Made by a program: the position numbers and the translations under genes. Shown here piece after piece: positions 605-47,427 of a stretch of DNA of 64,000 nucleotides; position 1 is the first letter of the stretch, and the number at the start of each line of letters is the position of its first letter. Location of the stretch: assembly GCA_030549815.1 (NCBI GenBank), contig JAUQQQ010000001.1, positions 18,524 to 82,523 on the forward strand, written 5' to 3'. The notes beneath the pieces were generated by a model that worked only from the letters and a program-made list of their open reading frames with translations, was not told the DNA's origin and made no database searches. Source of the stretch: a bacterium (lineage in GTDB: Bacteria > DRYD01).

Positions 605-1249
605 ATGTCAGAAATCAATTCAGTAGGTTCCGGAGCAAGTAACGTATCATCTGCACAAAGTTCCTCAGCAGCACAGTCAAGTAATGTAAATCAAGGTTCT
701 TCAATAAATGAAACCCGAAATGAACAAACACAACAATCAAATAATGATGAAAACTTAAAAGACAAAGACAAAACCGAAAAAGATGAAGAAAAGAAAAAAT
801 TACAAGAAGAAATTGATAAACTTAAAAAGGAAATAGAAGAATTGAAAAAACAATTACAAAATCAACCCAAAGGAAATAGCAACTCTAATTCCCAAAAGCC
901 ACAGCAATCACAACAAGCACAAAATGATCCTAACCAAAACCAAAACGATCCTAATCAGTTGATACTTCAAGATATAGCAGCAGTTTTACAAGCTGCACAA
1001 CAAGGTGGACAAGGACTTCAACAAGCAGTAGGAAAACTAAAACAAGACTACACAATGATTAAATCAATGAATATTCCTCTTAAACCAGAAGTTGATCAAA
1101 TGGCACAACAAGTATTACAACAATTCGGAGGTGGCGCAGGCGTAGGACAAAATCCTGCAGGAATAGCGCAAGGGTTAAATCCAACACAAGCAGTTAATCC
1201 ACTTAACAATACAGCATCTGCCAATATAGGCAGACAAAACTTTATATAA
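605..1249 (+). CDS. Gln/Asn/Ser-rich coiled-coil protein of unknown function
   Basis: I do not recognise this protein. The track starts at GTG 596, but AGGAGGTGAT (591-600) overlaps that codon and lies 8 nt before ATG 605, so MSEINSVGSG... is the better start (214 aa). Residues 1-45 are Ser/Asn/Gln-rich with no Sec signal peptide. Residues about 55-90 are a charged coiled coil (EIDKLKKEIEELKKQL). A Gln/Pro/Asn linker follows, then a helical part (LILQDIAAVLQAAQQGGQG) and a Gly/Asn-rich tail. The gene stands alone, with a strong terminator at its 3' end. The soluble, low-complexity composition suggests a structural, secreted or surface protein, possibly exported by a non-Sec route; that is inference. 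It shares its upstream motif with two cell-wall hydrolase genes and sigH. Confidence 0.7.
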   Translation: MSEINSVGSGASNVSSAQSSSAAQSSNVNQGSSINETRNEQTQQSNNDENLKDKDKTEKDEEKKKLQEEIDKLKKEIEELKKQLQNQPKGNSNSNSQKPQQSQQAQNDPNQNQNDPNQLILQDIAAVLQAAQQGGQGLQQAVGKLKQDYTMIKSMNIPLKPEVDQMAQQVLQQFGGGAGVGQNPAGIAQGLNPTQAVNPLNNTASANIGRQNFI

Positions 1250-1277
1250 AAATTCGATATAGCCACAATATGAAATT

Positions 1278-1306
1278 AAAAGGGGGATTATCTTAATCCC
1301 CCTTTT
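1278..1306. terminator. bidirectional intrinsic terminator
   Basis: AAAAGGGGGATTA-tct-TAATCCCCCTTTT is a perfect 13-bp stem with a 3-nt loop and A/T tracts on both sides. It lies between the rightward coiled-coil gene and the leftward glycosyltransferase and can serve both. Confidence 0.9.
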
Positions 1307-1312
1307 AGTTTT

Positions 1313-2260
1313 CTAAATTCCAATAATCAATTTTTCAATATCCTTTAATTGCGAATATTTTAAAAGAAAAATTTTAGATACATTAGAGAAAGGAGCCCAT
1401 CTCTTAACCCTATAATCAAAACCTTGATCAGGAAAAATGGAAATAACGACAGGGACGTTAAAAAATGAAGCCAAGTGAACAGGACCTGTATCAAAACCAA
1501 CCAACATAAAACTTTCTAAACACAATTCTACATAATCCATTATGTTCTCAATAAAAACTTTCCTTACATTCCCAATATCAATATCCATATATTTCTTTTC
1601 ATAAGGGCCAAATACAACCAAAACATCACCAAATTTTTGCAAATAATTTATCAATGTTTCATAATGCTCCAATTTTGCTCCTAAATCAAAAGATTTATAA
1701 GTCCAATGTAAAACAATTTTTTTTCTCTCTTTATTTTGAAAATCACCAAAAATCCTATAATCATAGAAATTAAAAATTTCATCTTTAAAAACTCTCATCT
1801 TTTCATAAATATCATTATTTACCAACAAAAAAGAATGAAGGATAAAGTTAAAAGTATTCAAAATATCATGCCCTTCAAAAATATTTTCAAAATCAATAAA
1901 AAAATATTTCTGATAAAAAAAATTCTTGCTAAATAAAAATTTATACATTTTCGAGATTAGTTTTGAAGAGTAAGAAGAGATAATTTTGTATTTTGAAGGG
2001 AAATTAATTATTTTTTTGAAATGTTTAAAATTCCTAATCTTCCCCCACGGACCTAAAAAAATAACTAAATCAGTTTCTCTATAAGAATCAATACTTTGTA
2101 AAATCACTTCTCCATTACAGAATAAATTCCCAACAAAATTGGAAAAATTGTTCAAATAATAAATTTTTCCATCAAAAATCGATGATAATATCTTAAGAGT
2201 TGGTATAGTAAAAAGGGTATCTCCTAACCCATCATCACGATAAATTGCTATACTTTTCAT
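1313..2260 (-). CDS. glycosyltransferase family 9 (heptosyltransferase-like)
   Basis: The 315-aa protein starts MKSIAIYRDDGLGDTLFTIP, the usual GT9 N-terminus (nucleotide-sugar glycosyltransferases with a GT-B fold, such as LPS heptosyltransferases I and II). Near residue 255 it has GFDTGPVHLASFFNVPVV, the family donor-site signature. It probably transfers a heptose or related sugar to lipid A-core or another surface glycan on the cytoplasmic face of the inner membrane. It is the last gene of a leftward group beginning with gmd, which supports surface-polysaccharide synthesis. The middle (residues 90-160) is Phe/Tyr/Lys-rich and divergent, so the exact sugar cannot be stated. No clear ribosome binding site is seen. 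Confidence 0.8.
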   Translation of the reverse strand: MKSIAIYRDDGLGDTLFTIPTLKILSSIFDGKIYYLNNFSNFVGNLFCNGEVILQSIDSYRETDLVIFLGPWGKIRNFKHFKKIINFPSKYKIISSYSSKLISKMYKFLFSKNFFYQKYFFIDFENIFEGHDILNTFNFILHSFLLVNNDIYEKMRVFKDEIFNFYDYRIFGDFQNKERKKIVLHWTYKSFDLGAKLEHYETLINYLQKFGDVLVVFGPYEKKYMDIDIGNVRKVFIENIMDYVELCLESFMLVGFDTGPVHLASFFNVPVVISIFPDQGFDYRVKRWAPFSNVSKIFLLKYSQLKDIEKLIIGI

Positions 2261-2334
2261 CGTGTTTGATTTAATAATTTAATAATATTTTCTATAACAT
2301 TTGAAATGTTTTTTTACCTTTTCCTTTATTATCA

Positions 2335-2958
2335 CTATGTTCTTTTAACTCCAAATAAGGCAAACTTATATATCCATATTATGCCAATGATATTCTCAAA
2401 TTTTTTGTTTACTACCAAAGCTAAGAAAACTCCCAAGCATTCAATTAAAATAAGAATAGCATTTTTATAATATCCATATCCATTATAGTGTCCACTATCA
2501 TGGTGGTCTCCAGCATCATGGTAGTCCCCACCATCATGATGGCGCCCCTTTGAGCCACCATCAGAATCTCCGTGCGACCCTTGATGATAAGAATCAACAG
2601 TAATAGCTTGACTTTCTATTCCAGAAGCAACATCAGCAATATTTTTTAATCTACTGAAAATTTCATTTGCTGCTTCCTTCAATTCCACATAATTTTTTTC
2701 CTCAGCAAATGAAATTATTTTATTAGTTTTCTCTTCTATTGTTTTTATATTTTCTCTTAATTCTTGTAAAGCTGTTTCAAGATATTTTTTAGATATCCAA
2801 ATTTCCAAATCCGATTTTTCTATACTTGTTTTTCCTATATTTTGTTTGTTTTTATTTGCCTTCTTTCGATGAGCGAATAGAATAAAGATTGTAATGATTA
2901 TAGCAATAATTGGAGCCCAAATAACTAAAAACTTTGCAATATTTTCACCAATAACCAT
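2335..2958 (-). CDS. membrane protein with His/Gly/Asp-rich segment
   Basis: I do not recognise this 207-aa protein. It has an N-terminal transmembrane helix (about residues 8-28), a basic stretch, a coiled-coil-like part (about 45-115), a low-complexity His/Asp/Gly segment (about 120-160, with HHDGGDYHDAGDHHDSGH), and a C-terminal hydrophobic helix (about 165-185). The His/Asp cluster could bind divalent metal; this is inference. It sits between gmd and the GT9 gene on the same strand, with short gaps (32 and 74 bp), so it is probably in that operon. A comparable His/Asp-rich loop between membrane segments occurs in the NfeD-like protein at 9.4-10.0 kb. Confidence 0.65.
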   Translation of the reverse strand: MVIGENIAKFLVIWAPIIAIIITIFILFAHRKKANKNKQNIGKTSIEKSDLEIWISKKYLETALQELRENIKTIEEKTNKIISFAEEKNYVELKEAANEIFSRLKNIADVASGIESQAITVDSYHQGSHGDSDGGSKGRHHDGGDYHDAGDHHDSGHYNGYGYYKNAILILIECLGVFLALVVNKKFENIIGIIWIYKFALFGVKRT

Positions 2959-2990
2959 TTAAATCACCATCCATTAATTTTTAAAACAAA

Positions 2991-4016
2991 TTACTTTACT
3001 TTTAGCATTTCCAGATCCTTCAATTCTTCTTCAACCATTATCTCTATTAATTTATCGAATTTAGTTTTTGGTTCCCACCCCAATACCTTCTTTGCTTTTG
3101 AGTAATCACCTACTAACAGATCAACTTCAGAGGGTCTGAAAAACTCTGGGTCTGTTTCTACTCTTATAAAACCTTTATTATCAACAGCAACTATTCTATT
3201 ATTTTTTTCTTCCCACTTTATTTCAATTCCCACACATTGGAAAGCTTTTTCGATAAGTTCTTTGACGCTGTGTGTTTCGCCAGTTGCTAAAACAAAATCA
3301 TCAGGGTAATCATGTTGCATCATTAAATACATACCATATACGTATTCAGGGGCATATCCCCAATCCCTTTTAGCCCAAATATTACCAACTTTGAAACTTT
3401 CCAACATACCTTTCTTTACCATACAAACGCTATTAACAACTTTTTTTGTGATAAATTCGATTGATCGTAAAGGAGACTCATGATTAAACAAAATCCCACA
3501 GGTATTGAACATTCCATAAGCTTCTCTGTAATTTACGGTAATCCAGTGAGCAAATAATTTCGAAACACCATATGGACTTCTTGGATAAAAAGGAGTTGTT
3601 TCCTTTTGAGGTATCTCTTGAACTTTACCAAATAATTCAGAAGTAGATGCTTGGTAAAATTTTGAATCCTTAGAAAATAACCTAATTGCTTCCAAAATCC
3701 TTAATACTCCTAAAGCGTTAACATTTGAAGTAAGCAATGGTTGCTTAAATGAAGCATGAACAAAACTCTGAGCAGCCAAATTATAAATCTCATCAAATTT
3801 ATTTTCTTTAATTACTTCAAAAACATTACTTTCTTCCAATAAATCCATGTATATTATTTTAACTTTGTCTTTAATTTTTAATTTTTCCAACCTCCAATAA
3901 GAGGAGTCTGAGCTTCGTCTATCAGCACCATAAACCTCATATCCCATCTCCAACAATAGCTTTGCTAAATAAGCTCCATCCTGGCCTCTTATCCCAGTTA
4001 TCAGCGCTTTTTTCAT
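2991..4016 (-). CDS. gmd: GDP-mannose 4,6-dehydratase
   Basis: The 341-aa short-chain dehydrogenase/reductase converts GDP-D-mannose to GDP-4-keto-6-deoxymannose, the precursor of GDP-fucose, rhamnose or perosamine-type sugars. The NAD(P) loop is GIRGQDGAYLA at residue 8; the active-site part has QASTSELFGK and the YGVSK (YxxxK) motif. Length is normal for the family. ATG 4016 is preceded by GGAGG (TAGGAGGTCGTGT). It is the first gene of the leftward surface-sugar operon with the His-rich membrane protein and GT9. No GDP-fucose synthase is next to it, so the final sugar is unknown. Confidence 0.92.
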   Translation of the reverse strand: MKKALITGIRGQDGAYLAKLLLEMGYEVYGADRRSSDSSYWRLEKLKIKDKVKIIYMDLLEESNVFEVIKENKFDEIYNLAAQSFVHASFKQPLLTSNVNALGVLRILEAIRLFSKDSKFYQASTSELFGKVQEIPQKETTPFYPRSPYGVSKLFAHWITVNYREAYGMFNTCGILFNHESPLRSIEFITKKVVNSVCMVKKGMLESFKVGNIWAKRDWGYAPEYVYGMYLMMQHDYPDDFVLATGETHSVKELIEKAFQCVGIEIKWEEKNNRIVAVDNKGFIRVETDPEFFRPSEVDLLVGDYSKAKKVLGWEPKTKFDKLIEIMVEEELKDLEMLKVK

Positions 4017-4092
4017 ACACGACCTCCTAACTCAAACACTATTTTTGCTCTTCTAATTAATCTATTTTTTTTAAAACATTTAATCCCTTTTT

Positions 4093-4108
4093 TACATTTT
4101 TTACAAAA
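4093..4108 (+). promoter_or_regulatory. TACATTTTTTACAAAA motif upstream of the NlpC gene
   Basis: It differs from the motif at 534 only in its first base, and lies about 75 bp before the start codon at 4181, inside the 164-bp divergent spacer between gmd and the NlpC/P60 gene. Confidence 0.4.
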
Positions 4109-4180
4109 TAATGCTTGATTTTAAAACAAATTCTGTTAGTTAATTAATAGGGGAACACCAAACAAAAAGGGGGGATTAAG

Positions 4181-5071
4181 ATGTTCGGTATAAATTCAAT
4201 CAATTTCAACATGACAAACATAAATACCCTTAACTTTAAATACAACCAAATATCTATTGGATTTAACAACCAAATTAATGATAGCTTAAATTTATCCGGA
4301 TTATCAAATACTAACCCGTTTGTGACAGGATTAATAGGTGGATTAACAGGAGGGTTAATTGGGGGATTACTTGGAGGACTTCTGTCAAATAACCCAATGT
4401 CTTTCGGTTTCCCTCAACAACAAAATAATCAAAACATTAATAACCAATTACTCTTAAGTTTACTAATACTCTTGGTTTCACTAATCTTATCGCAAAATTC
4501 ACAAGGGGGAGGAATACCATTCGGTACACCTTTTGGAAACCAACTCGGATCACCTCTTGGATCACCATTGGGCGCACCATTCGGAGGAATGAATCCTCCA
4601 TACTTTGGTTATCCCAATAGCCCCCTACAAAATAATCCTTTACAAAATAATCCTCTACAAAATAACCCTCAACAAAATAATCCAGCTGATCAATCCATAG
4701 GTGGAGGAAATGGGAACGTAGTTAATTTAGCTTTACAACAAGTTGGAAAACCCTATGTATTTGGAGCAGAGGGTCCAAACGCATTCGACTGCTCTGGTTT
4801 AGTTCAATGGGTATTTAAAAGATGCGGTAAAAATTTACCAAGAACAGCAGAAGAGCAATTCAGAGTAGGCACGCCAGTTCAAAAAAATCAGCTGCAACCG
4901 GGAGATTTGGTATTCTTTGCAAACACTTACAAACCAGGTATATCCCACGTAGGTATATATATAGGAAACGGGAAATTTGTCCATGCAGCAAACAGTAGAG
5001 AAGGAGTAAAAGTTAGTAGTCTATCGGAAAGCTATTACGTGCAACATTATGCTGGCGCCAAAAGAGTATAA
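4181..5071 (+). CDS. NlpC/P60 peptidoglycan endopeptidase with glycine-zipper N-terminal module
   Basis: 296 aa. The C-terminal 110 residues are an NlpC/P60 domain, which cleaves peptide links in peptidoglycan: catalytic Cys in FDCSGLVQW, His in SHVGIYIGNG, third residue in the HAAN region. The N-terminal 170 residues are unusual. MFGINSINFN begins a 45-residue Asn/Ile/Ser-rich stretch; then come a glycine zipper (GLIGGLTGGLIGGLLGGLL), a Gln/Asn linker, a hydrophobic helix (NQLLLSLLILLVSLIL), a PFG/PLG-rich linker and three to four PLQNN repeats. There is no normal Sec signal. The same order of parts occurs in the lytic transglycosylase at 56.7 kb. The start is set by AAGGGGGG just upstream of ATG 4181. 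The 3' end overlaps the convergent YfhO-like gene by 59 bp. Confidence 0.85.
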   Translation: MFGINSINFNMTNINTLNFKYNQISIGFNNQINDSLNLSGLSNTNPFVTGLIGGLTGGLIGGLLGGLLSNNPMSFGFPQQQNNQNINNQLLLSLLILLVSLILSQNSQGGGIPFGTPFGNQLGSPLGSPLGAPFGGMNPPYFGYPNSPLQNNPLQNNPLQNNPQQNNPADQSIGGGNGNVVNLALQQVGKPYVFGAEGPNAFDCSGLVQWVFKRCGKNLPRTAEEQFRVGTPVQKNQLQPGDLVFFANTYKPGISHVGIYIGNGKFVHAANSREGVKVSSLSESYYVQHYAGAKRV

Positions 5072-7868
5072 CCCAAAATACAAACAAATAAAAATAAATA
5101 AAGAAAAAATTCAAGTACAATAAGAAAAGAGGGAAAGGTTGATAAATAAACCTTATTTTACCTTTACCTTTCTCAACAAAAACACCTTTTACAATCCCAT
5201 TAACCTTTATTATAGGTAATTCATGGTTATCCCTAATTGCTTTCCATCCCCTATAATATAAATCATTAAAAACAATCAAACTAAACCCATCAGTTTCATA
5301 AAAAATATCAATATAATTACTACCCCTCTTTTCTATTTTTACCTTCGCTTTCTTTATATCTTTCCCAAAATAAGAAGCTTTTTCAATAAATACAGTAAGA
5401 GGATCATTTTGTAAAGTTAAAAAACTATACTTCACATCTTCAATACTATCAACAAACTTTACAGAAGAAGGAGAAAAAACGATAGGCAAAGCGTAAGGGT
5501 TCTCATAAACTTCACTCCCCATAAAACTACTATCATAAATATAAGCTTTTCTACTCAAACCATTGCCAGGCACAACAAAAGGAAAACTATAAACATCTAT
5601 ATCCTTTATTTCATAAATCCTTGAAAAACTATTAACAGGATAGATATTTATTTGGAGATTAACGAAATCCGCCTGATTTTGGAAATCAATAATAAAAGGA
5701 ACAACAACTTGAACCCATCTACTACTATCAATATAATAATCATTCAAAAAATAATACGATAAGGACTTGTTATTAATATCCTTAACTTCAATACCTAAAC
5801 CATCGGATATATTAAAAACCAACCGCCTATACTTATATAAAAAACTAACTTTATTAACTCTTGCTTTAAAACAAACAAGCAAAGCCTTATTCAAACTTCT
5901 ATTCTTAAAATTTAAAACTATTCTGGAGTCTTGTTTCAAAGTCAAAACATTATTAACAAGTTCAACTTTAATATTTTTAGAGTTATTAAAAATTTCAGAT
6001 AAATCATCAAACCTATATTTATCTATTTCAACATTTCCTTTCCTTAGTGCACCTACATTTACAAACTTTCCATACTTTTCCTTGAATTCCTCATTTATAA
6101 AAATGTATTTGACAGAAAAAGCACTTAATAAGTTATTATTTAGAATAAAAAAGTAATCATTTGGTTGTATAAAACTACCGTTCATCCATATATTAAAAAG
6201 TTTAACAAAATCAAAAGGGATAACAGGTTCGTAATAATTTAACATTCTCTTTCCAACTACCCCTGGAAAAATTAATGGAAAACCAGTAAAATAAGCTATC
6301 CTATAGTTATTGTCGAATTTTTTTATAAAATTGAGGTAGTTAATAATGTTTTCTCTTTTTCCCCACCAACTGGACACATAAGAAGGGCTAATGTTGTAAA
6401 AAAACCAAAAACTCTCAAAAAAGAAAATAACAAATAAAATCGACAAAATTTCAAACCTAAAATCCCTATTAAGCCACCAAAACAAACCAATAACGACAAA
6501 AAATAGAATACCAAATAGTAATGGAAAATACAAATCAGGAGTGTTAATGTTAATCTTTGAAAGATTTTTCCCGACCTCAGGATTTACAAAAAACCAAAAT
6601 GAAAGAAAAAATAACACAAATATAGTAATAATAGAAACTTTAACAAAATTAAAAAATTCTTGCTTTTCTTTCAAGATAAAATGCAAAGAAAAAGGTATGA
6701 AAATAGATTGAACCAAACTTATCTCCATCAAATGTCGTGCCACCACCCTAACCTTGGAATAAAAAGGAAAATCAAAAAGAAGATAATGAAAGATTAAATT
6801 ATACTTGCCCAAGGACAAAATAAATACAACGATACCAGAAAAAGCCAAAACTTTCAATAACCCTTCTATATCCTTTTGTTGAAAAACTTTGACAAAAGCA
6901 AAAATTGTTAAAAATAAGGAAACAGAAGAACTGTAAGCCAAGAATTCAAAAGATATAGTACCAGTCGAAGGTCCGTAATAAGTAGGATTGCTTATACTAC
7001 CACCAAATATGAAAGGTATAACTTGATTAATAAGAGCAAAAATAGGAAAAGATCCCTGATTATAAGTCTCGAAATTTATATAGTTTCTGACCGATATTTT
7101 TGATAACTCCAGAACTTCATAAGCAAACAAAAATATCAATGGAAAACTTAAAATAAGAGAAAAAAATAATACCCACAATAAACGATAATTCAAAAAAATT
7201 CCATAAATAATCAAAAAAATAAAAGAATAAAGAAAAGCTTGAGGATAGCCCGCTAAAAACTGATACCCTAACGATAAAGATAACCCCAAAAAAAACACAA
7301 AATTTTCCCTTATATTAACCAACCAACTTTTATTTCTATCATAATTATCACAAATTATTGAAAAAAACAATAAACTAAGAGGTAAGTAAGGAATAGAATT
7401 TTGCAAAGGAACAAAATCAACATGAGATAAAATAAATGAGCTAAGCCCAAACAAAAAACCAGATAAAACAGCAAAAAATCTTTCTAATCCAATTTTTCTA
7501 TAAATAAACGACGCGAATAAAAAACCAAAAAACTGAGCCATAACAAAATGAATAAAAATACTAAAATTATACGCCCAATAAGGATCAAAAAATCTATATA
7601 ACAAAAGATTAAAAGGGTACAAACCTCCTGCCTGAACTATACCCAAAAAAGGTAATCCCAAAGCCTGATAAGGATACCACAAAGGAAACTCCCCGTTTTT
7701 CAAACAATTACTATAAAATAATCTTAACGGTAAGAATTGGTTATAACTATCCGCAGACCCTATAATATGATCTTTTACAGGTATAAAAAAAACAAAAACT
7801 AAAAAGCAATAAAATATTAAAACATCAAGATTAAATTTCCTTACAAGATAAAATATCCTACCCAACAA
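5013..7868 (-). CDS. YfhO-like multi-spanning membrane protein (GT-C type)
   Basis: 951 aa with about 12 N-terminal hydrophobic helices and a soluble C-terminal half. The early part reads NGEFPLWYPYQALGLPFLG then QAGGLYPFNLLLY, the signature of YfhO/PF09586 bacterial membrane proteins, thought to be polyprenyl-phosphate-dependent glycosyltransferases that decorate surface polymers. The start is a TTG (7868), 2 nt after the stop of the upstream gene. The next in-frame stop upstream is at 7893, and no ATG lies near, so the TTG with translational coupling is the likely choice. Its last 59 bp are antisense to the NlpC gene. The exact substrate is unknown. Confidence 0.75.
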   Translation of the reverse strand: MLGRIFYLVRKFNLDVLIFYCFLVFVFFIPVKDHIIGSADSYNQFLPLRLFYSNCLKNGEFPLWYPYQALGLPFLGIVQAGGLYPFNLLLYRFFDPYWAYNFSIFIHFVMAQFFGFLFASFIYRKIGLERFFAVLSGFLFGLSSFILSHVDFVPLQNSIPYLPLSLLFFSIICDNYDRNKSWLVNIRENFVFFLGLSLSLGYQFLAGYPQAFLYSFIFLIIYGIFLNYRLLWVLFFSLILSFPLIFLFAYEVLELSKISVRNYINFETYNQGSFPIFALINQVIPFIFGGSISNPTYYGPSTGTISFEFLAYSSSVSLFLTIFAFVKVFQQKDIEGLLKVLAFSGIVVFILSLGKYNLIFHYLLFDFPFYSKVRVVARHLMEISLVQSIFIPFSLHFILKEKQEFFNFVKVSIITIFVLFFLSFWFFVNPEVGKNLSKININTPDLYFPLLFGILFFVVIGLFWWLNRDFRFEILSILFVIFFFESFWFFYNISPSYVSSWWGKRENIINYLNFIKKFDNNYRIAYFTGFPLIFPGVVGKRMLNYYEPVIPFDFVKLFNIWMNGSFIQPNDYFFILNNNLLSAFSVKYIFINEEFKEKYGKFVNVGALRKGNVEIDKYRFDDLSEIFNNSKNIKVELVNNVLTLKQDSRIVLNFKNRSLNKALLVCFKARVNKVSFLYKYRRLVFNISDGLGIEVKDINNKSLSYYFLNDYYIDSSRWVQVVVPFIIDFQNQADFVNLQINIYPVNSFSRIYEIKDIDVYSFPFVVPGNGLSRKAYIYDSSFMGSEVYENPYALPIVFSPSSVKFVDSIEDVKYSFLTLQNDPLTVFIEKASYFGKDIKKAKVKIEKRGSNYIDIFYETDGFSLIVFNDLYYRGWKAIRDNHELPIIKVNGIVKGVFVEKGKGKIRFIYQPFPLFLLYLNFFFIYFYLFVFWVILFWRQHNVARNSFPIDY

Positions 7869-44619: not shown

Positions 44620-45606
44620 TTAATCAAACAATTCACTTATTGATTTTTTCAAGTATATTCTTTTTATAACTTCAGATATCAGATTAGAAATTGAAGAGAC
44701 GATTATTTTTTGATTAGTATTTTTAAGGGGGATGGTGTCAGTGACAAACATTTTTTCTATTGGAGATTTATCGAGTAATTCCAATGCGTTGGATGAGAAT
44801 ACTGGATGAACTGCCAATGCATATATTTTATTAGCTCCCATAGCTTTCAATTTTTCGGCAGCTCTAACTAAGGTCTTAGCAGTAGAAACCATATCATCAA
44901 CGATAATCACATTCTTGTTTTCTATTTCACCCACAACCTCCATGGATTCTACTTCTTCTATATCGGGTCTTCTTTTAAACATCACGGCAATAGGTAATCC
45001 CATTTTTTCTGAATACATTCTTGCTCTTATAACACTACCCGCATCAGGAGCAAGAATAACAAAACTATCTTTATCCACTTTCCCAATATATTCCATAAAC
45101 GCATTTACAAGTGCCCTATAAGCATAAAGGTTATCGACGGGTATATCGAAAAATCCTTGTATAGCAGGAGCATGAAGATCAACTGTAACAACCCTATTAG
45201 CTCCCGCGACAGTTATTAAGTTGGCCACTAATTTAGCGGTGATTGGTTCTCTTCCCGATACTTTCTTTTCCTGCTTTGCATATCCAAAATATGGTATAAC
45301 AGCAGTAATACTATTAGCTGATGCTCTCTTAACAGCATCAATTATTATCAACAATTCCATTAAATTATCATTAACAGGTGGACAAGTAGATTGAATAACA
45401 AATACATCCTTCCCTCTAACATTTTCCAAAATTTTAACCCTTACCTCACCATCAGAAAACTTAGAAACTATACTATTAGCTAACGGAATATCAAGAGTAT
45501 CAGAAATTTTCTTTGCCAATTCAAGATTAGAATTACCACTTATAAGAACCAATCTGTTGAAAATATCCTTGTTTTCCTCAATTTCTTCGCTTTGAGGAGT
45601 AATCAT
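44620..45606 (-). CDS. prs: ribose-phosphate pyrophosphokinase
   Basis: 328 aa. Makes PRPP from ribose 5-phosphate and ATP for nucleotide, His, Trp and NAD synthesis. Motifs are SKFSDGEVRVKI, DAVKRASANSITAVIPYFGYAKQEKK, VTVDLHAPAIQGFFDIPVDN and the PRPP loop ENKNVIIVDDMVSTAKTL. The flexible loop is KQEKKVSGREPI rather than the common RQDRKxxxRxPI. ATG 45606 has AAGGAT upstream, directly preceded by a hairpin and a pseudoknot (see leader). It is the first gene of the prs-ftsW-polX run. Confidence 0.95.
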   Translation of the reverse strand: MITPQSEEIEENKDIFNRLVLISGNSNLELAKKISDTLDIPLANSIVSKFSDGEVRVKILENVRGKDVFVIQSTCPPVNDNLMELLIIIDAVKRASANSITAVIPYFGYAKQEKKVSGREPITAKLVANLITVAGANRVVTVDLHAPAIQGFFDIPVDNLYAYRALVNAFMEYIGKVDKDSFVILAPDAGSVIRARMYSEKMGLPIAVMFKRRPDIEEVESMEVVGEIENKNVIIVDDMVSTAKTLVRAAEKLKAMGANKIYALAVHPVFSSNALELLDKSPIEKMFVTDTIPLKNTNQKIIVSSISNLISEVIKRIYLKKSISELFD

Positions 45607-45620
45607 ATTTATCCTTTTTA

Positions 45621-45677
45621 CAAAGCTGATTACTCAGCTTTGGTTAGAGTATTTTTATTCCGCCTCTAACAAGCGGA
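45621..45677 (-). promoter_or_regulatory. structured prs leader: H-type pseudoknot plus GUAA-tetraloop hairpin
   Basis: Minus strand, 5' to 3': stem 1 TCCGC (45677-45673), two-nt loop TT, stem 2 GTTAGAG (45670-45664), stem 1 return GCGGA (45663-45659), nine-nt A-rich loop ATAAAAATA, stem 2 return CTCTAAC (45649-45643). Without a gap follows the perfect 9-bp hairpin CAAAGCTGA-gtaa-TCAGCTTTG (45642-45621) and then TAAAAAGGATAAATATG. The loop lengths (2 nt across a 7-bp stem, 9 A-rich nt across a 5-bp stem) are those of classic H-type pseudoknots. It does not look like the known ykkC-family PRPP riboswitch. A role in controlling prs translation is inferred. Confidence 0.55.
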
Positions 45678-45702: not shown

Positions 45703-47304
45703 TTAGAAATCTATCTTTTCAGATACAGATCTTCCTTGTAAGAAGTAGAGTAAATAATCAGGACCTCCTGCTTTGGCATCAGTACCCGACATGTTAAATC
45801 CACCAAAAGGATGAACACCGACAATAGCACCCGTACATTTCCTGTTAATGTAAAGATTACCGCAATAGAAATCTTTTACAGCTTTATCGATATTATATCG
45901 ATTTTCACTAAAAACTGCACCCGTAAGTCCATATTCAGTTGAATTAGCAATATCTATAGCTTGGTTGAAATCTTCAAATTTCATGACCGCTAAGACAGGT
46001 CCAAATATCTCTTCTTGAGCAATTACATCATTAACTTTTACATCTTCAAAGATAGTAGGTTGGATATAGTATCCTTTATCTTCTAACAATTTGCTACCTC
46101 CAAAAACAAGTTTATTTTGTTTTTTTCCGATTTCAATGTACTCTAATATTTTATCTTGTGCAGCTTTATTTATAACAGGTCCCATAAATTTATTTTCCTT
46201 AGGCAAACCAACTTCAATATTTTTTACCTTTTCTACAAACAAATTCATAAACTTGTCGTATATGTTTTTGTGTAGTAGTAATCTCGAGCAAGCTGAGCAC
46301 TTCTGTCCTTGATACCCATAAGCAGAAACTAAAACGCTATTAACAGCATAATTAAGGAATTCCTCATCTTTAATATCATCAACGATTATTGCGTTTTTCC
46401 CACCCATTTCAGCAATAACTCTTTTTAGATGTTTTTGTCCTGGTCTAACAATAGAAGCTTCTTTGTATATATTTATCCCAACTTCTTTAGATCCTGTAAA
46501 TGCTATCATTCTAACTAAAGGATGTTTAACGAGATAATCCCCTACTACACTTCCTCTTCCAGATAGAAAGTTCAAAACTCCATCGGGCAATCCAGCTTCT
46601 TTCATTATCGAATAGAAGAAATAAGACATAAAGCAAGAGTCATTAGCAGGTTTGAGAATAACAGTGTTACCTGTAACAAGAGCAGCGATAGACATTCCTG
46701 CAGGAATAGCAAGCGGGAAATTCCATGGTGGTATAACTAACACAACACCCAAAGGTAAGTAGTGATAATAATTTTTTTCTCCTGGGAATTTCAGGAGTTT
46801 TGGTTTATTTTCATATAGTTCTATCATTTGTTGAGCATAGTATTCAAGGTAATCAATAGTTTCAGCAACATCAGCATCTGCTTCGGCATAATTTTTACCA
46901 ACTTCTAATATCATCCAAGCAATAGCCTCAAACCTTCTTTGTCTGAGAATGTTTGCAGCTCTGAAGAATATATGTGCCCTTTGATAAACATCCAATTTTG
47001 ACCATGTTTTAAATGCTTCATAAGCTGCATTTACTGCTGATTCTGCTTGTTCTATTGAAGCATCTTGGAAAACTCCAACTACTTGCGAAAAATCACCAGG
47101 ATTGATAGATTTTATCTTATTATTGGAATAATATTCTTTACCACCTATAAATAAAGGATATTCCTTGCCTAAATTTGATTCTGCGAAATCTATTGCATCT
47201 CTTATTTTCTTAACCACATTTGGGTCTGAAAGGTTTAAAAAAGGTTCTGTTTGGTAATCACTTTTATTATACGACAGGTTTTCTTTTCTTATCATTGTTT
47301 GCAT
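45703..47304 (-). CDS. rocA: 1-pyrroline-5-carboxylate dehydrogenase
   Basis: 533 aa from ATG 47304, with AAGGGGGT upstream. The track extends 30 codons further, but that extension looks non-coding. Aldehyde dehydrogenase superfamily, P5CDH branch: ELGKEYPLFIGG-like start, LPLGVVLVIPPWNFPLAIPA, FTGSKEVGINIY, catalytic Glu in VIAEMGGKNAIIVD and catalytic Cys in YGYQGQKCSACSR. It oxidises P5C (glutamate semialdehyde) to glutamate in proline or arginine breakdown. No proline dehydrogenase is adjacent. It is the gene upstream of prs; 97 bp with the pseudoknot lie between. Confidence 0.92.
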   Translation of the reverse strand: MQTMIRKENLSYNKSDYQTEPFLNLSDPNVVKKIRDAIDFAESNLGKEYPLFIGGKEYYSNNKIKSINPGDFSQVVGVFQDASIEQAESAVNAAYEAFKTWSKLDVYQRAHIFFRAANILRQRRFEAIAWMILEVGKNYAEADADVAETIDYLEYYAQQMIELYENKPKLLKFPGEKNYYHYLPLGVVLVIPPWNFPLAIPAGMSIAALVTGNTVILKPANDSCFMSYFFYSIMKEAGLPDGVLNFLSGRGSVVGDYLVKHPLVRMIAFTGSKEVGINIYKEASIVRPGQKHLKRVIAEMGGKNAIIVDDIKDEEFLNYAVNSVLVSAYGYQGQKCSACSRLLLHKNIYDKFMNLFVEKVKNIEVGLPKENKFMGPVINKAAQDKILEYIEIGKKQNKLVFGGSKLLEDKGYYIQPTIFEDVKVNDVIAQEEIFGPVLAVMKFEDFNQAIDIANSTEYGLTGAVFSENRYNIDKAVKDFYCGNLYINRKCTGAIVGVHPFGGFNMSGTDAKAGGPDYLLYFLQGRSVSEKIDF

Positions 47305-47427
47305 AAGAACTACCCCCTTATACGATAACTTACAATAATAAATTTCCATAAAAAAAACCAAATCCTCCTTCAATAAATTTTCGCTTTTTAGCAAGGATAA
47401 AAGTAGATTTGGTAAAATTAATAAAAT

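Follow-up and report, generated by a model that had tools for sequence, protein, structure and literature searches.

A dispersed family of H-type pseudoknots in front of prs and other housekeeping genes: a candidate translation-initiation element

The pseudoknot in front of prs in the stretch of 64,000 nucleotides analyzed here (the window) is a real structure but does not represent a prs riboswitch. It belongs to a dispersed RNA family, present in six genomes (G000-G005) from two genera of one bacterial family, with about 30 copies in the genome of the window and about 16-36 in each relative, all of which are lower bounds because the copies come from pattern and model searches. The element measures around 40 nt and consists of an H-type pseudoknot with an optional flush hairpin. 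It takes the place of a strong Shine-Dalgarno sequence (SD) at core genes, keeps a set distance to the AUG and combines a constant face with a free second stem, a combination that is best read as that of a translation-initiation element. On these sequence features, the copy in front of prs probably substitutes for an SD, recruiting the 30S subunit and positioning the AUG. No description of such an element was found in the literature, which was covered incompletely.

The 96 bases between the stop codon of the P5C dehydrogenase gene and the start of prs hold the pseudoknot, the flush hairpin and a weak SD. Pseudoknot and hairpin lie on the minus strand (45677-45621), where both were confirmed as a preliminary description of the window had drawn them. 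In the direction of transcription, the locus comprises:

45703-47394, minus strand: aldehyde dehydrogenase family gene (P5C dehydrogenase), upstream and co-directional
45673-45676, minus strand: 5' strand of P1, CCGC, invariant in the family (U45677 was added in the preliminary description)
45664-45670, minus strand: 5' strand of P2, GUUAGAG, partner of 45643-45649
45660-45663, minus strand: 3' strand of P1, GCGG, invariant in the family
45650-45659, minus strand: L3, AAUAAAAAUA, with the near-invariant family core nAUAnAA
45643-45649, minus strand: 3' strand of P2, CUCUAAC
45621-45642, minus strand: optional flush hairpin, 9 bp, perfect, GUAA loop, beginning 0 nt from P2 like the majority of hairpins in the family
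45607-45620, minus strand: 14-nt spacer UAAAAAGGAUAAAU from the last structured base to the AUG, with the weak SD AAGGA; SD-less copies are spaced alike
44620-45606, minus strand: prs, ribose-phosphate pyrophosphokinase, downstream gene, AUG at 45606

P1 was first described as UCCGC/GCGGA (45677-45673 / 45663-45659), and L3 reads AUAAAAAUA when this outer pair is counted as stem. L1 is UU, and base 45664 may instead pair with U45672 to form the inner P1 pair. The hairpin reads CAAAGCUGA-GUAA-UCAGCUUUG; its GNRA character holds at prs but does not extend to the other copies, whose loops are not generally GNRA. Even with the pseudoknot left out of folding, the leader exceeds shuffled sequences in stability (z of -4.2). 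No transcription terminator was found at the leader on either strand.

Feedback control of prs had been proposed for this structure, with PRPP, a nucleotide or a proline-related metabolite as the effector. Small H-type pseudoknots do act as aptamers in the preQ1-I and SAM-II riboswitches. Nonetheless, the order of P5C dehydrogenase and prs is kept in three relatives of the same genus (G001-G003; prs 75-87% identical), in which both knot stems are absent from the prs leader, the very finding that the preliminary description had named as speaking against its proposal. The intergenic gap of these relatives spans only around 30 nt and carries a strong SD, a run such as AGGGGG. Moreover, each genome has the same knot before some 30 genes of unrelated function, among them alaS, rpsD, ssb and tig. 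Riboswitches are characterized by conserved aptamer nucleotides together with genes of a single metabolic pathway; conserved nucleotides do occur here, in P1 and L3, but they precede housekeeping genes that are unrelated to each other. The covariance models of Rfam 15 (including preQ1, SAM-II, ykkC/PRPP and the ribosomal protein leaders) match neither the window nor 20 loci carrying other copies of the knot, and the best sub-threshold score (18.7 bits, where the gathering score is 50) is not meaningful. A known Rfam class is thus ruled out at the gathering threshold. A prs-specific riboswitch is likewise ruled out, by the stem-less orthologs and the many other host genes, and retains only a vanishing probability in our judgement. 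The more general claim, a functional cis-acting H-type pseudoknot ahead of a ribosome binding site, is judged to be right, which illustrates that a structure that is not conserved at its own locus can nonetheless be a real functional element.

Weak matches to the leader within the genome of the window represent the same fold with other stem sequences, located before acpP, rplL and another gene. In the same genome, the pattern CCGCN(6-16)GCGG occurs at 29 sites, compared to 5 for the reversed control; two of these sites lie in 23S rRNA, which leaves 27 copies of the element. A covariance model built on P1 and L3 only, leaving out P2, yields 32 hits for the genome of the window, 16, 29 and 28 hits in genomes of the same genus, and 36 and 21 hits in the sister genus, while no hits are obtained in the sole genome of a sister family (G006). 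When 386 genomes were scanned with a strict version of the pattern, each of the six family genomes had 6-14 hits and G006 had none, with nine single sites in the remaining genomes; the nearest relatives outside the order share only the domain with the genome of the window. Pattern matches in viral contigs remain at chance level. Model hits in one further genome (G070) were rejected as family members, as they lie inside genes and lack P2. Chance inverted repeats are ruled out by the genome-wide recurrence and by a permutation test on P2 given below. Because the same architecture recurs genome-wide with different stem sequences, the prs structure is far beyond chance, and the existence of a dispersed RNA family is certain.

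Separately, the 23S rRNA gene of genome G000 is interrupted (locus L315, contig C3, 1007-7092). Its Rfam LSU match is split into two parts (4984-7092 and 1007-3530), and four ORFs inside the gene (1506-2093, 2379-2993, 3654-4136 and 4528-4989) were named by eye as LAGLIDADG homing endonuclease-like. Together, the split match and these ORFs suggest several introns in this gene.

Conservation differs sharply between the parts of the element. The CCGC/GCGG stem is invariant in all 146 copies examined (those in related genomes not being independent of each other), and the A-rich loop L3 is near-invariant (nAUAnAAAU), with A2, U3, A4, A6 and A7 almost fixed. Next to the four invariant pairs of P1, the inner fifth pair covaries (134 of 146 copies, compared to 108 with permuted partners; maximum 118), whereas the outer U-A pair is not supported (77 compared to 67; maximum 84). 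In P2, on the other hand, the loop and the downstream segment of the same copy are paired in 139 of 146 cases, while partners permuted among copies pair in 57 on average and 70 at most, and the loop sequences comprise 137 distinct variants among the 146 copies. The negative control consisted of 85 sites that match the pattern by chance, almost all of them viral; 9 of these are paired where 8.1 are expected, so no excess is seen. With two stems, a P1 loop that pairs downstream of P1, and covariation, the fold is an H-type pseudoknot. The expected covariation is therefore found across dispersed copies, in P2, but not across prs orthologs. The invariance of P1 and L3 next to a free P2 suggests that the P1:L3 surface may be the recognized face, with any P2 serving to hold it in place. 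In the sister genus (G004 and G005; e.g., L289, L300, L301, L304 and L305), many copies have an enlarged loop of around 10-50 nt between P2 and P1, sometimes with a hairpin of its own, and retain P1, L3 and the P2 pairing.

These data also bear on a neutral mobile repeat, a MITE-like cassette that would lie before genes by accident. Near-identical pseudoknot and hairpin cassettes in G004 and the difference in gene occupancy between the genera are what such a repeat would produce, but P2 differs in almost every copy and is still paired, 145 of 146 copies are oriented alike relative to the start codon, and several loci are conserved in orthologs, with the rpsD copy kept in all six genomes and its P2 changed yet paired. 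Covariation and orientation have largely refuted this explanation, which we regard as very improbable. As to the G004 cassettes themselves (L306 and L309-L314), they combine the pseudoknot with a 12-bp hairpin (CAAAAGTGTATA...TATACACTTTTG) before unrelated genes, and some end in short inverted repeats (CCTAATA/TATTAGG), which suggests a recent duplicative spread of the element.

An ORF starts around 25-63 nt (5-95% range) downstream of P1 in 145 of 146 copies. The upstream ORF is co-directional in 128 of 144 copies, and its stop codon precedes the element by a median of 4.5 nt. Three spacing classes, defined post hoc after the data were seen and based on predicted start codons, can be distinguished. 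In type A, P2 ends around 10-15 nt before the AUG, and the spacer is A-rich and lacks an SD. In type B, P2 ends 16-23 nt before the AUG; in genus g1, to which the window belongs, an SD lies in between, while type B copies of the sister genus mostly lack an SD too. Type C, which includes the prs copy, carries the hairpin, in nearly all cases flush after P2, with its end mostly 12-17 nt before the AUG. The last structured base of copies with a weak or no SD is thus mostly around 10-17 nt before the AUG, i.e., their fold ends about where the upstream edge of the SD helix would be. The genes concerned encode ribosomal proteins S4, L5, L7/L12 and L31 (rpsD, rplE, rplL and rpmE), trigger factor (tig), ribosome recycling factor, alanyl-tRNA synthetase (alaS), single-strand binding protein SSB (ssb), acyl carrier protein (acpP), malate dehydrogenase, pyruvate phosphate dikinase and branched-chain aminotransferase, among others, and the set of knot-bearing genes differs between the genera. 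The mostly intercistronic position right after the upstream stop codon, together with the stable structure and optional hairpin, would also fit a role in mRNA processing or stability. In that case, a structure between operon genes that resists or recruits nucleases would determine where the downstream mRNA begins and how long it lasts. Such a role would leave the narrow AUG spacing, the exchange with a strong SD and the constant sequence of P1 and L3 unexplained, and appears improbable.

The exchange with the SD lends indirect support to the idea that translation depends on the knot. The 3' end of the 16S rRNA carries a normal, intact anti-SD. In the genome of the window, none of the 22 type A and C copies is accompanied by an SD of -8 kcal/mol or lower, while 67% of the 43 knot-less genes whose gap measures 10 nt or more reach this value (one-sided p = 9e-5). 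Type A copies show a similar contrast in the relatives, and type C copies a weaker one. The comparison of single genes across relatives is the clearest in this respect: the SDs of knot-bearing alaS (+2.0 kcal/mol), rplE (-2.8), ssb (-4.8), ppdK (-3.3), tig (-4.9) and prs (-5.6, as duplex with the anti-SD) are weak or lacking by choice, since these six genes were picked from types A and C, but the strong SDs of their orthologs were not so chosen. All 24 usable knot-less orthologs in G001-G006 have an SD between -10.2 and -17.0 kcal/mol (with the start of tig in G004 taken as GTG, SD -13.2). Knot and strong SD are thus mutually exclusive at the same gene between relatives. Since the downstream genes are housekeeping genes, a constitutive loss of their translation is unlikely. 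SD substitution is not universal, as one class in genus g1 combines the knot with a good SD. A further copy before a kbl-like gene (L147, genome G000) has P1 and L3, lacks the P2 pairing and is followed by a strong SD (AAAGGGGG); it is possibly a decaying element that returns to SD-driven initiation.

The main rival is a global regulatory site, at which an RNA-binding protein or a small signal molecule on the P1/L3 face would turn on or off the translation of a large housekeeping regulon. P1 and L3 are conserved in sequence beyond what pairing requires, as in a binding site, the element overlaps the initiation region and the member genes are growth-related. Yet, repressors and riboswitches normally act on an existing SD. 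Most members here have no strong SD, although knot-less orthologs do, and membership shifts between genera, unlike in a fixed regulon. We consider such a site unlikely, although a regulated activator protein that recruits ribosomes would merge with the initiation-element reading, so that the two partly overlap.

The structure before prs is one copy of a cis-acting mRNA element situated mostly between operon genes, directly before the start codon. If the element does serve initiation, its constant P1:L3 face would dock at the mRNA exit site on the platform of the 30S subunit, in the place otherwise taken by the SD/anti-SD helix, either directly or via a lineage-specific protein. Once docked, the folded element would recruit the 30S subunit and position the AUG, replacing the SD in SD-less copies and adding to recruitment in copies with an SD between knot and AUG. 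Ribosomal protein S1 is the usual binder of pseudoknots. However, no multi-domain S1 was found in G000-G005 (MAGs, 71-90% complete), of which the only strong S1 domain is located in PNPase and three carry one further weak single-domain hit each. This removes the obvious model, S1 docking, which was rejected as the mechanism. The knot-less genome of the sister family (G006) does have a four-domain S1 protein; the pattern of knot versus S1 is a single correlation among incomplete MAGs. Whether a family apparently lacking S1 has evolved a compact pseudoknot as a genome-wide, IRES-like alternative to the SD, interchangeable with it at dozens of core genes, is in our view evenly balanced. Known bacterial start signals comprise the SD, leaderless starts, A/U-rich S1-assisted starts and individually regulated structured leaders. 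If true, a short, recognizable and modular RNA fold used in place of the SD by many essential genes would add a further mode of start-site selection, pose the concrete question of what it contacts on an S1-less ribosome, and offer a portable part for synthetic biology.

Several known systems resemble the element in part. The ykkC-type PRPP riboswitch, considered because of prs, has another architecture, gives no covariance-model match and is not paralleled here by any restriction to prs, in agreement with the lack of likeness already noted by eye. The preQ1-I and SAM-II riboswitches are likewise small H-type pseudoknots that lie near the ribosome binding site and have an A-rich L3, but the element does not match their models, occurs before many unrelated genes and does not sequester an SD in its fold. 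S1 binds H-type pseudoknots (PMC7708055) and mediates the activity of the IGR IRES in E. coli (PMC9458429). The S1-dependent pseudoknots (rpsO leader, tisB standby site, S1 SELEX; PMC7708055) are likewise of the H-type and bring S1 and the 30S subunit to the mRNA start; they differ in sequence and spacing rules, and the host genomes here are without a detected multi-domain S1. The nearest experimental precedent is the repZ/repA activator pseudoknot of IncI-alpha, IncB and IncL-M plasmids (Asano & Mizobuchi 1998, as summarized in PMC8383071), which lies upstream of the ribosome binding site, just as 145 of the 146 copies of the element lie right before an initiation site. The plasmid pseudoknot serves one regulated gene under antisense RNA control, no sign of which was seen at the copies of the element. 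The element described here is chromosomal, occurs in about 30 copies per genome and precedes unrelated genes that mostly lack a strong SD.
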